This document shows positions 3,414 through 61,801 of a stretch of DNA of 64,000 bases, piece by piece. The notes below the pieces were generated by a model. It made no database searches. It was not told where the DNA came from and saw nothing but the letters and a program-made list of their open reading frames with translations. Every line of letters starts with the position of its first letter. Within the stretch, counting starts at the first letter, position 1. Source of the stretch: Paraburkholderia megapolitana (lineage in GTDB: Bacteria > Pseudomonadota > Gammaproteobacteria > Burkholderiales > Burkholderiaceae); the NCBI RefSeq assembly GCF_007556815.1, contig NZ_CP041745.1, forward strand, positions 3,573,001 to 3,637,000, written 5' to 3'. A program made the position numbers and the translations under genes.

Positions 3414-3604
3414 CGACGATGAGCGGCAGATCAGCGGCAAAATGGGCGAAATTGATGGTTTACACGAACGCGCGCGGTGTCGTATTCTTTCGCCCATGAA
3501 CCGCATCCAGTCCGAACTTCGACGTCGCCGCTCGCCGCTCCCTTAGGGGCGCCGCTGGCTTCGTCACGGATTCGCGCCGTCAGGCGCATGTTGTTCGAAT
3601 CATG

Positions 3605-3637
3605 AAAGCCACGGCCTGCCGTGGCTTTTTTGTTTTT
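3605..3637 (+). terminator. Intrinsic terminator after the flavin reductase
   Basis: Perfect stem AAAGCCACGGC (3605-3615) / GCCGTGGCTTT (3618-3628) followed by a long T-run. It lies only about 40 bases before the next start codon, so the downstream gene must have its own promoter overlapping this region or be fed by read-through. Confidence 0.8.
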
Positions 3638-58519: not shown

Positions 58520-58522
58520 ATG

Positions 58523-59797
58523 ATGAGCATCATCGACCTCGATCCTCCCGGTTTCCAGCCGCCGCGCCCCATGGCCGGCGACGAAGGCGCCCGGCGCACC
58601 GTCCTGTATGGCGGCTACACCGTCTTCAGCGTGTTCCAGCCTGTGTTTTCGGTGTCGCACCGGCGCGCCATCGGCTACCACGCATCGCTGCGCGCGCACG
58701 ACGAACAGGCGCTGCAAGTGCCGTCGCACGAAGTGTTCACGCAGGCGGCGCGGCGCGGCGATCTGCTCGAACTCGGACGACTTGCCGAATCGCTGCATCT
58801 CGGCAACTTCAATGCGTTCGACAGCCACGACGAGTGGCTCTTCCTGAACCTGCACCCGGCCGCGCTGATGGACACGAGCTACGGCGATGCGCTGCTCGCG
58901 AGCCTGAAGGCGCTCGGCTTGCCGCCGCAGCGTGTCGTGCTCGAAGTGTCGGAACAGGCGGGCGGCGAAACGACGCGCTTCGCCGAGATCGTCGACGCGT
59001 TGCGTAAATCCGGCTTTCTGATCGCGCTCGATGGCTTTGGTGCGAAGCACTCGAACATCGACCGCGTGTGGCAGTTGCGACCCGACATCGTTACGCTCGA
59101 TCGCTGCATTCTTGCGCAGGCGAGCGAGCATTCGCATATCGAGCGCGTGCTGCCGGGCCTCGTGTCGCTGTTGCACGAATCGGGGCAGCTCGTACTGATG
59201 GGCGGTCTGTCCACCGAACGCGATGCCCTGATCGCGCTCGAGTGCAATGTGGATTTCGTGCAGGGGACGTACTTCGCGGGCCCGAGCGTCGACCCGGTGA
59301 AACCGCAGACGGCCGCGGGCGTGATGGATGCGCTATCGGCAGCGCTGCGCGAACGTGTCGCCGCACGCGAACGTGCCCAGGCGAAGCGCCTTGCCCCTTA
59401 TGTCATCGCGCTGAAACAGGCGAGCACGCAACTGATCGCGGGCAAAACCGTGGCGGATGCAACCACCGCGCTGCTTGCGCTCGACGAAACCGCTCGCTGC
59501 TTCCTGCTCGATGCGTCAGGCCGGCAGATCGGCGATAACGTGTTGCCGCCCGGCCGCGCATCGCAGCGCGCGAAGCGGTTTCGTCCGTTGCTGCACTCGG
59601 AAGGCGCTAGCTGGGAACGTCGGCCGTATTTCATCGAAGCCGTGCGCACACCTGGCCTCGTCCATGTGACGCCGCCGTATCTGTCGATCAACGAGGCGCA
59701 CCTGTGCGTCACCGCATCGATCGCCGCGCAGACTGCGCACGGCGTTCAGGTGCTATGCGTCGACATCAACTGGGAAGTCGCCGCACACCGTAACTGA
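58523..59797 (+). CDS. EAL-domain protein with degenerate active site and PAS-like C-terminus
   Basis: A 424-residue protein. The EAL fold occupies about residues 30-260. Catalytic motifs have decayed: GAEALLR is GYHASLR, DDFG is DGFG and K in KIDR is T (TLDR); AEGVET is MGGLST. Only part of the metal ligands remain (LNLHP, EVSEQ). A helical linker and a PAS/Cache-like C-terminal domain (SRCFLLDASGRQIG... type, about 310-420, YkuI-like) follow. It is therefore probably a c-di-GMP binding effector, not a phosphodiesterase. Its last 45 bases overlap the convergent sigma-factor gene. Confidence 0.85.
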   Translation: MSIIDLDPPGFQPPRPMAGDEGARRTVLYGGYTVFSVFQPVFSVSHRRAIGYHASLRAHDEQALQVPSHEVFTQAARRGDLLELGRLAESLHLGNFNAFDSHDEWLFLNLHPAALMDTSYGDALLASLKALGLPPQRVVLEVSEQAGGETTRFAEIVDALRKSGFLIALDGFGAKHSNIDRVWQLRPDIVTLDRCILAQASEHSHIERVLPGLVSLLHESGQLVLMGGLSTERDALIALECNVDFVQGTYFAGPSVDPVKPQTAAGVMDALSAALRERVAARERAQAKRLAPYVIALKQASTQLIAGKTVADATTALLALDETARCFLLDASGRQIGDNVLPPGRASQRAKRFRPLLHSEGASWERRPYFIEAVRTPGLVHVTPPYLSINEAHLCVTASIAAQTAHGVQVLCVDINWEVAAHRN

Positions 59798-60709
59798 TAC
59801 GGACGGGCGCACGAGAGAACGCGCGCGAATCCGCTTCAGCAGGCGCTGCACGGCGAGCAGACCGAATTGCTCGTTAGCGGCCTGCAGGCTCGTCGCATCG
59901 GTGACCACACGCAGCGCGGCGATGGTGTCGGTGCCGTCGTCGTCCGCCGTGATATCCAGCCATGCCACGATCTCGCCGGCGCGCAGCAGCGCGAGACCCG
60001 GCGTGTCGTCCATCGACATGGCTTCGGCCGCGCAGCCCTTCATGCTGGCGACGAACGTCGTCGTGGCTACCACGTCGAGCGCGTCGTCGACCACTTCCGG
60101 TAGCGCGCCGAACAATCGCAGCAGGCTCGCGCTGTCCTGTTCATCGATCGCTACCCGCAGTTGTTCGACCAGCCGCGTATGCGCGGCCGGATCGGCCGCC
60201 GGCAACGGCGCACCCGCCCGCTGCAGACGACTCTTCGCGCGATGCACGATTTGCCTGCAAGTCGATGGCGGCCGGTCGAGAATCTTCGCAATGTCCGCGT
60301 ATTCGCAATCGAACGCCTCGTGCAGCACGAATGCCGCGCGTTCCTCGGGCTTGAGCCGCTCGAGCAGCAGCAGTACGCCGCGGGACAATTCCGCTGCGCG
60401 CAATACAAGCTCTTCCGCCGACGGCGCGAATTCGTCGAGCCACGGTTGCGGGAACGCGCCGCCCGTCTGCAACGCACGCTCGTATTGCAGATGCCGCAAC
60501 CGGTCGATCGCGAGGCGTGTAGTAATCGTGGTGAGCCAGGCAGCGGGTGTGCGCACTTCGTCGGCACTGGCTGACCGCCACTTCAGCCAGGCGTCCTGCA
60601 CGATGTCCTCGGCTTCCGCGCGGCTGCCGAGCATCCGGTACGCGAGTGCGAGCAGCCGTGCGCGTGCGGCATCGAACGCCGCTGCGGGATCGTTTGTCTG
60701 TTCCGTCAT
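59753..60709 (-). CDS. ECF RNA polymerase sigma factor, SigJ/ECF41-like
   Basis: A 318-residue sigma-70 family factor. Region 2 is AYRMLGSRAEAEDIVQDAWLKW and region 4 is EEYADI-type (ADIAKILDRPPSTCRQIVHRAKSRL, shown in part). A SnoaL-like C-terminal extension of about 130 residues follows, used by ECF41 factors for self-regulation in place of an anti-sigma. Here the NGxPG motif appears as DDTPG and the NPDK/DGGGR motifs are not conserved. Its own promoter shows TGTCACG-N16-CGTC (60787-60813), suggesting positive autoregulation. The clpP paralogue is divergent. Confidence 0.88.
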   Translation of the reverse strand: MTEQTNDPAAAFDAARARLLALAYRMLGSRAEAEDIVQDAWLKWRSASADEVRTPAAWLTTITTRLAIDRLRHLQYERALQTGGAFPQPWLDEFAPSAEELVLRAAELSRGVLLLLERLKPEERAAFVLHEAFDCEYADIAKILDRPPSTCRQIVHRAKSRLQRAGAPLPAADPAAHTRLVEQLRVAIDEQDSASLLRLFGALPEVVDDALDVVATTTFVASMKGCAAEAMSMDDTPGLALLRAGEIVAWLDITADDDGTDTIAALRVVTDATSLQAANEQFGLLAVQRLLKRIRARSLVRPSVSVTVCGDFPVDVDA

Positions 60710-60786
60710 GTGTGACTCATGTGTGACATTCGCAACGCTCCAAAGACGAACGTGAAAACTGCGCGCGCTCACGCGCTTTTCCGGTT

Positions 60787-60813
60787 GACGTTTGAACCAT
60801 GGTCGGCGTGACA
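60787..60813 (-). promoter_or_regulatory. ECF41-type promoter of the sigma-factor gene
   Basis: On the minus strand: -35 TGTCACG (60807-60813), exactly 16 bases, -10 CGTC (60787-60790). It matches the published ECF41 consensus TGTCACA-N16-CGTC at ten of eleven positions. It lies about 77 bases before the start codon. Confidence 0.75.
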
Positions 60814-60833
60814 CTCCAGCGAAAAAATTTATC

Positions 60834-60860
60834 TGTCACGCGGTGTCTCGCCCTTGCGTC
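60834..60860 (+). promoter_or_regulatory. ECF41-type promoter of the clpP paralogue
   Basis: TGTCACG (60834-60840), exactly 16 bases, CGTC (60857-60860). Same sequence and spacing as the divergent sigma-factor promoter. It lies about 70 bases before the clpP start at 60931. Confidence 0.75.
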
Positions 60861-60930
60861 ATGCGATTAGGACCTCGCGCCACCTTACTTTCTTTCTGGC
60901 GCAGGGCCACTCTTTCACTGCGAGGAACGC

Positions 60931-61599
60931 ATGCCCTTCCATCCCCCGCCCCCCGGTTTCTCGGGGCTCGGCCTTGTGCCGACCGTCATCGAACAGTCCG
61001 GCCGCGGCGAGCGCGCCTATGACATCTATTCGCGCCTGCTACGCGAGCGCATCGTGTTTCTGGTCGGTCCGGTGAACGATCAATCGGCGAGCCTGATCGT
61101 CGCGCAGTTGCTGTTCCTCGAATCCGAAAACCCCGACAAGGACATCTCTTTCTACATCAACTCGCCTGGCGGTTCAGTCTACGACGGTATGGCGATCTAC
61201 GACACGATGCAGTTTATCAAGCCCGAAGTGGCCACGCTGTGTACCGGCTTCGCCGCGAGCATGGGCTCGTTTCTTCTCGCGGCCGGCCAGCGCGGCAAGC
61301 GCTACGCGCTGCCGAACGCGCGGATCCTGATCCATCAACCGTCGGGTGGCAGCCAGGGAACGGCCGCCGATATCGACATCCAGGCGCGCGAAGTGCTCTA
61401 TCAGCGCCAACGGCTGAACTCGATACTCGCCGAACGCACCGGGCAAAGCATCGAAACGATCGCGAAAGACACGGATCGCGATAACTTCATGTCGGCCGCG
61501 GCGGCGAAGGAATATGGATTGATCGACGATGTGTTGAGTTCGCGGCATGCGCTGCCGGACTCAGCGGCTACGGCGATGTTGACTGGGCCGGCAACTTAA
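60931..61599 (+). CDS. ClpP-type protease subunit, stand-alone paralogue
   Basis: A 222-residue serine protease of the tetradecameric Clp core. Catalytic residues are Ser110 ([10 protein letters not shown]), His135 (ILIHQPSGG) and Asp184 (TDRDNFMSA); [21 protein letters not shown] is typical. GAGGA precedes the start. It has no clpX or tig neighbour, unlike the main clpP. It is divergent from an ECF41-like sigma gene and carries the same promoter element, so it is probably an induced stress protease subunit that borrows ClpA or ClpX. Confidence 0.92.
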
Positions 61600-61674
61600 G
61601 ACGACGCCGTGAAGCACCCCGCAGTTGCCATCAGAAGACGTGTGGCCCCCGGTATATTCAAAACACGCATCAAT

Positions 61675-61699
61675 TGATTCAAATAAACAATTTGAATCA
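61675..61699. promoter_or_regulatory. Perfect inverted repeat upstream of the ClC gene
   Basis: TGATTCAAAT (61675-61684), 5-base spacer, ATTTGAATCA (61690-61699). A/T-rich and palindromic, about 100 bases before the ClC start; probably a regulator site (MarR- or LysR-like in form). Confidence 0.55.
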
Positions 61700-61801
61700 T
61701 GTTGCGCTGCGGAATAGTATTCAGGGCAAAGAATCCGGCCAGATGGGAGTTACGATTCCGTCAGCCGCGACTCAATGTCCACCTATACCGGGAGCCACAA
61801 C

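Follow-up and report, generated by a model that had tools for sequence, protein, structure and literature searches.

A sigma factor gene divergent from a second clpP in Paraburkholderia megapolitana: a candidate autoregulated ECF sigma/ClpP module

What is a second ClpP peptidase wired to in bacteria that also have a housekeeping copy? The question is raised by a 64,000-nucleotide stretch of the Paraburkholderia megapolitana genome (contig NZ_CP041745.1, positions 3,573,001 to 3,637,000; hereafter, the window), in which a gene for an extracytoplasmic function (ECF) sigma factor and a paralogue of clpP, here clpP2, diverge from an intergenic region of 221 bp that houses a promoter element for each of them. 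A preliminary description of the window, made from the sequence alone, had proposed this arrangement, and both genes and both elements were found at the coordinates it gave (Table 1). The two genes very probably form a closed autoregulated ECF sigma/ClpP module. That would give the second ClpP of these bacteria a place in a regulatory circuit, and would add a protease to the few targets on record for factors of the ECF41 type.

Paired promoter elements and joint inheritance of the two genes

The elements are written here as TGTCAC-N17-CGTC, which is the same as the TGTCACG-N16-CGTC of the preliminary description. They had been called identical; this holds for the boxes, while the spacers differ. 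As had also been claimed, boxes and spacing agree with the ECF41 promoter (TGTCACA, 16 ± 1 bp, CGTC), which is backed by experiment in two organisms according to the portions of PMC3426412 available to us; the seventh base is G in the window. The sequence between the two −35 boxes of the window is CTCCAGCGAAAAAATTTATC.

A search of 144 genomes of the genus gave a sigma match in 135, and the best sigma locus was taken from 133 of them, the decayed loci of G129 and G130 being left out. In 133/133 loci clpP was divergent from the sigma gene, and one and only one NGTCAC-N17-CGTC was directed toward each gene, so that the elements proved to be conserved across related loci, a point on which the preliminary description had made its proposal depend. 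Of 13300 shuffled intergenic regions, 21 had this relaxed pattern on a given strand. The sigma-side element starts with T in all 133 loci. Spacer sequences vary among species while the boxes stay conserved. The −35 boxes are separated by 20 bp in 112 of the 133 loci and by 21 bp in 11; positions 10–14 of the core between them are A in 107–112 of the 112 loci with a 20-bp core, and the A+T content of the core is 58% vs 38% in the flanks. The A-tract may act in the manner of an UP element. A 74-bp pattern covering both sites, each with N17, was searched in a 399-genome sample of the order, which holds few members of the genus: it occurred once each in G000 and G056, both of this genus, and was absent from the remaining 397. 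The pattern omits N18 forms (some loci of the family f8, described below, and G417), and its reversed control gave no match in the sample.

The presence of clpP2 followed that of the sigma gene. All nine genomes of the genus without a sigma match had a single clpP. In the clpP search, which covered 141 genomes, 131 of the 132 others carried at least two clpP genes, the remnants in G129 and G130 included. One clpP was found in G128 (84% complete), and it was ClpP2; a separate search of G092 likewise recovered only ClpP2. Remnants of the sigma gene and of clpP lie side by side in G129 and G130, and the same was seen in G624, which belongs to another family.

The pair was also found beyond the genus. 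Of 249 genomes from the same family, 46 had a sigma match at E <= 1e-45, and 20 of these 46 belong to other genera; some of the weakest matches are probably ordinary ECF41 factors. The clpP gene was divergent in 10/10 loci examined from other genera, and a looser pattern detected sites toward both genes in nine of them: three with TGTCAC on both sides and one with it on the sigma side only. In the family f8, two clpP matches were present in 18 of 195 genomes, 15 of which were examined (the second copies of G835, G843 and G918 were left out). Fourteen of these 15 loci had clpP divergent from a related sigma gene with sites on both sides, and the remaining one was a decayed pair; the sigma frame of the f8 locus L409 is broken. 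The family f5 provided one case of the module (L434). As a counter-example, the clpP of L417 (G408:C39) has neither clpX nor this type of sigma gene within 1.5 kb, and the other clpP of that genome stands beside clpX; this is a different kind of duplication. A protein search of a plasmid collection with the sigma gave no match. Judged by the loci compared, the sigma/clpP2 module is real, conserved and functional-looking.

The second ClpP and the diverged sigma factor

Ser110 and His135 were invariant in 141/141 ClpP2 rows, as were two candidate Asp residues. ClpP2 is identical to the housekeeping ClpP of its own genome at 142 of 193 aligned residues, and 17 positions discriminate it from 19 ClpP1 rows. 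In the ClpP tree, several branches of which are long, 39 linked rows fell on one side of a branch (96/92) and the ClpP1 of the genus stood apart (100/99); the sole f8 linked ClpP in the tree adjoined the linked rows of the genus (99/90). The housekeeping clpP lies within tig-clpP-clpX in G000 and G001 (genes named by eye). ClpP2 shares with its product the family and the catalytic residues but differs from it in the type-specific positions, the separate branch, the ECF-type promoter and the lack of an adjoining clpX. No unfoldase gene adjoins clpP2 in the window, and ClpX or ClpA would therefore have to be shared. A third ClpP-like gene, a distant one with 44% identity, was seen at L322 (G071:C151).

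The sigma protein contains the domains Sigma70_r2 (3.8e-14) and Sigma70_r4_2 (7.7e-14). TIGR02937, the general sigma70-ECF model, scored above its cut-off among the NCBIfam models shown; SigX4 and SigJ were best by E-value, and SigX4, SigJ and SigI were all below their own cut-offs. Profile comparison of its C-terminal extension with the SnoaL-type extension of other ECF41-like sigmas (hhalign, 124 vs 11 rows, the latter being those of 71 other ECF41-like sigmas that passed the cut) gave a probability of 96.5% and an E-value of 8.7e-10. Pfam gave no SnoaL match in the extension of the window sigma. It was modelled as helices plus four strands; the overall predicted template modelling score (pTM) was 0.32, and domain placement from the model was disregarded.

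The DGGG and NPDKL-type motifs, whose letters we take to be those of the ECF41 extension and which were seen in other ECF41-like rows (55/71 and 48/71, respectively), were each found in 0/132 sigmas of the genus, the looser DGG being present in 7/132. The C-terminal motifs are thus altered, as the preliminary description had noted. Counts with n = 132 omit L205 (over-extended frame) and nine named loci; the 71 other sigmas are from named public records with automatic starts and ends, among them L057 with an internal stop. WLPEP, in the linker between sigma2 and sigma4, is replaced by AFPQP in the window and retained in 70/132 sigmas of the genus and 68/71 other ECF41-like sigmas. In an unrooted tree, a single branch (100/99) divides 33 linked sigmas from 36 other ECF41-like ones. 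By these comparisons the window sigma is ECF41-derived and separate from the ECF41-like rows sampled: it behaves like an ECF41 factor and lacks several of the features by which membership is recognised. The earlier label ECF41-like therefore stands for its derivation but not for a place among those rows.

With the characterised ECF41 factors (Ecf41Bli, Ecf41Rsp, SigJ) the window sigma shares the promoter boxes and spacing, the SnoaL-type extension, a local conserved target and the lack of an adjoining anti-sigma gene; it differs from them in the missing motifs and the separate branch. No carboxymuconolactone decarboxylase, oxidoreductase or epimerase gene adjoins the sigma gene, whose neighbours are clpP and a gene for an EAL-domain protein. 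In the available portions of PMC3426412 (Wecke et al. 2012), genes of these three kinds are the sole detectable ECF41 targets, although about 30% of ECF41 factors have none of them as a neighbour; the words Clp and Burkholderia are absent from its main text. A protease, as had been supposed, would be unusual as an ECF41 target, falling outside the targets given there. A link to Clp is not wholly unprecedented, because the review PMC8999054, in its available parts, predicts Clp control for ECF115. The sigma/clpP locus is not described in the accessible portions of PMC9023288, PMC8103513 and PMC3639386, and neither the locus nor the paired promoters nor the tail described below was found in the open-licence literature by title or opening of the abstract among the matches listed.

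Proposed circuit and competing explanations

The proposed circuit builds on features seen directly in the compared loci: the order of the genes, the conserved boxes and their near-fixed geometry, the inheritance and decay of the two genes together, and the conserved catalytic residues. Promoter conservation with diverging spacers, together with the joint presence, absence and decay of the genes, fits an autoregulated sigma factor with clpP as its conserved target. We infer that this sigma factor is the user of both promoters: it would recognise TGTCAC-N17-CGTC and transcribe its own gene and clpP2 from back-to-back promoters around the shared A-tract. The diverged SnoaL-type extension probably restrains it until some signal relieves it. 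The product would be an additional ClpP core that borrows ClpX or ClpA encoded elsewhere, so that proteolytic capacity would rise. In relatives with a tagged sigma, and possibly in some form here, Clp may also remove the sigma factor and so end the response.

Several observations weigh against this circuit. Single elements were at chance frequency genome-wide (32 matches vs 30 for a reversed control pattern), which the preliminary description had named as counting against its own proposal; it is the conservation of the pair that decides in favour of the elements. In the window, two matches were found vs 0.41 expected, and 8 of 100 shuffles attained two. The first base of the clpP-side element is T in 95 loci of the genus, C in 37 and G in 1, and the −35 box may therefore be weaker in the 38/133 loci with C or G. 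There is a stop inside the sigma match at L205 and L213, and so not every sigma copy need work. In five of the ten loci from other genera the sigma side has merely CGTCAC or CGTAAC, and at one of the ten, L297, no site was found even by the looser pattern. Finally, the genome encodes a second sigma of ECF41 type, which owns a divergent TGTCAC-N17-CGTC site (L265 1501 = G000:C3:3555904; L272 1501) and could cross-recognise the sigma/clpP promoters.

That second gene, which has the same box consensus and lies elsewhere in G000 and G001, gives rise to an explanation in which its product is the main reader of the boxes and the adjoining sigma a secondary or silent partner. We regard it as unlikely, since clpP2 is present, absent or decayed in step with the adjoining sigma and the linkage persists in three families. 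The site beside the second gene faces an MBL-fold ORF (open reading frame; named by eye) in G001, and its target is apparently gone in G000. Sites of the N17 form number 23 in G000 and 15 in G001, and five are common to the two genomes by eye besides the sigma/clpP pair; of the two shared sites examined, one lies within a coding region and the other is the intergenic one next to the second ECF41-like gene. Among these two of the five, no additional promoter common to both genomes was recognised, degenerate sites not being searched. The half-sites also form an inverted repeat, GTGACA-N20-TGTCAC, at a near-fixed distance, and could be taken for the operator of a dimeric regulator with the CGTC boxes incidental. 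An operator alone would not require CGTC exactly 17 bp away on both sides in 133/133 loci; moreover, the distance between the boxes at the f8 loci is 20–23 bp, yet the −35/−10 spacing stays 17 or 18. This makes the operator highly improbable. Three identical 27-base site matches (G000:C1:877468, C1:882127 and C3:2932510) perhaps mark a repeated gene or mobile element.

The autoregulated module may, in addition, be self-limiting: ClpP2 with ClpX, and perhaps SspB, would degrade its own inducer, giving a pulse or a set point, and in f8 and f5 an ssrA-like tail would have replaced the autoinhibitory C-terminal domain. This extends the proposed circuit rather than opposing it, and we give it a little less than an even chance. 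Thirteen f8 sigmas with unbroken frames were compared, L409 being excluded. Eleven are short (222–238 aa), with extensions of about 60–78 residues, and all eleven have AN[DE]xx[YF] within the last 18 residues, followed by an end of small residues (ANDAVYALAA, ANDASYRAVLAA); the f5 sigma of L434 also bears a tail of this type, ANDGGYGVLMAA. The last residue is Ala in all 13, and 10 of them close with Ala-Ala. AN[DE]xx[YF] was found in 0/71 other ECF41-like sigmas and in 0/593 background ORFs, 80 of which end in Ala and 14 in Ala-Ala. The tails resemble host tags of transfer-messenger RNA (tmRNA): of the 11 f8 genomes checked with ARAGORN, ten gave DNSYALAA or ANDNSYALAA and G889 gave ANDNSYAQAA, and the host of the sigma ending in ANDAVYALAA has the tag DNSYALAA. 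The tag of the window genome is ANDDTFALAA by the same program. Coding overlap does not explain the f8 and f5 tails, because the f8 tails are written with differing codons and because, in L434 and in 9 of the 11 short forms, the stop is not crossed by any convergent ORF listed. This suggests that the tail is an encoded Clp degron through which Clp would destroy the sigma factor. The short-form extension matched the long extension profile weakly (30 columns, probability 32%, E 0.0005), and the short forms seem to retain just the first helices. They come close to the ECF41 truncations reported, in the available text of PMC3426412, to be about 20-fold and 120-fold more active, and thus may be always active and limited by proteolysis. 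A precedent is AntA (ECF282, Streptomyces), an orphan ECF sigma factor degraded by ClpXP through a C-terminal di-alanine (PMC8999054, PMC7142297, as far as their accessible parts go), the same ending as in the ten f8 forms; unlike here, those parts describe no dedicated clpP beside AntA.

Other observations speak against such a brake. The tail pattern occurs in 0/132 sigmas of the genus and is missing from the long f8 forms L401 and L406; in the short forms L373 and L412 long antisense frames, taken as spurious, span the stop; and the housekeeping ClpP1 could do equally well. The window tail ends in Asp-Ala, not Ala-Ala. For the two final blocks of the window sigma the mean predicted local distance difference test value (pLDDT) was 51 and 46, and the last part of the tail is antisense to the end of the EAL gene. 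A final Ala was present in 123/132 sigmas of the genus (12/71 in other ECF41-like sigmas) and an FPVD[VI]xA-type tail in 87/132. In 112 of 140 loci the sigma gene and the convergent EAL gene overlap at their ends, typically by 45 bp, and in 103 of the 112 they run codon on codon; eight named records among the 140 may duplicate genomes counted elsewhere in the set, and the over-long frame of L205 gives a false overlap. Because the tail and the EAL gene share the same base pairs on opposite strands, a conserved tail does not speak for a degron in the window's clade, and a ClpX degron in the window's own tail was rejected: the conservation mirrors the antisense VDINWE of the EAL gene. Of the 28 loci without EAL overlap, 23 still end in Ala, many with the LVLA/LVVA tails of a single clade.

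ECF115, as the available parts of PMC8999054 describe it, offers a further comparison. For its extensions of about 70 residues, degradation by Clp proteases with genes close by is predicted; Clp genes nearby, a predicted Clp involvement and, in f8 and f5, a short extension of about 70 residues are thus shared, and the short forms may belong to ECF115. The window extension, at about 150 residues, is about twice as long and SnoaL-like, and in ECF115 the extension would be degraded to activate, whereas the f8 and f5 tail seems to mark the entire sigma for degradation. No ECF115 model was among the library matches of the window sigma.

The self-amplifying circuit of the preliminary description, in which the sigma factor would induce ClpP, is consistent with the conserved promoters and with joint inheritance and decay; as a purely self-amplifying one it is probably incomplete, because the ssrA-like tail of the relatives suggests a proteolytic brake. 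Tentatively, and with rather less than an even chance, the autoregulated module can be taken further: the only conserved target of the sigma besides its own gene would be the peptidase that destroys it, and f8 and f5 would have swapped a ligand-sensing domain for an encoded host tmRNA tag, the short form being constitutively active and controlled by proteolysis and the long form of the window still sensory. The series of long sigmas with a sensory domain and short ones with an ssrA-like tail makes a shift from ligand to proteolytic control without an anti-sigma factor testable, and the module also lets one ask whether a dedicated protease can brake its own inducer.

Layout and neighbourhood of the locus

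Table 1. Positions in the window of the genes, promoter elements and protein regions discussed
Feature	Position	Strand	Details
ECF sigma factor gene, 318 aa	59753..60709	-	ATG 60709-60707, stop 59755-59753
Promoter of the sigma gene, TGTCAC-N17-CGTC	60787..60813	-	-35 60813-60808, -10 60790-60787
Core of 20 bp between the -35 boxes, with conserved A-tract	60814..60833	.	exactly 20 bp in 112/133 loci
Promoter of clpP, TGTCAC-N17-CGTC	60834..60860	+	-35 60834-60839, -10 60857-60860
clpP paralogue (ClpP2), 222 aa	60931..61599	+	PF00574 1.3e-84; TIGR00493 above cut-off
Diverged SnoaL-type C-terminal extension of the sigma, residues ~173-290	59840..60193	-	profile comparison, model
Low-confidence C-terminal tail of the sigma, residues 301-318, ...CGDFPVDVDA	59756..59809	-	pLDDT
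EAL-domain gene, convergent with the sigma gene	58520-59797	+	
Tail-to-tail overlap of the sigma and EAL genes, 45 bp	59753..59797	.	coordinates of both ORFs

The ATG given in Table 1 is the most likely start of the sigma gene; a start at GTG 60814 was disfavoured. The closest named relative found, P. acidicola ATCC 31363 (L009), has a sigma 87–88% and a clpP 99% identical to those of the window. The EAL gene adjoins the sigma gene in 140/141 loci, and the chromosomal place of the sigma/clpP pair is therefore old.

A conserved operon of clpP with a CLC gene was considered and rejected: the CLC protein was matched in 2/141 loci, most of which extend merely 0.4–1.3 kb past clpP, so that a more distant CLC gene would escape detection. 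In P. acidicola two ORFs, by eye isochorismatase-like and TetR-like, separate clpP from the CLC gene; they are lacking at 61600-61774 of the window. Far from the locus, at 3482-3631 (+) of the window, Rfam matched BcKCsr7 (Burkholderia sRNA 7) with 129.8 bits.

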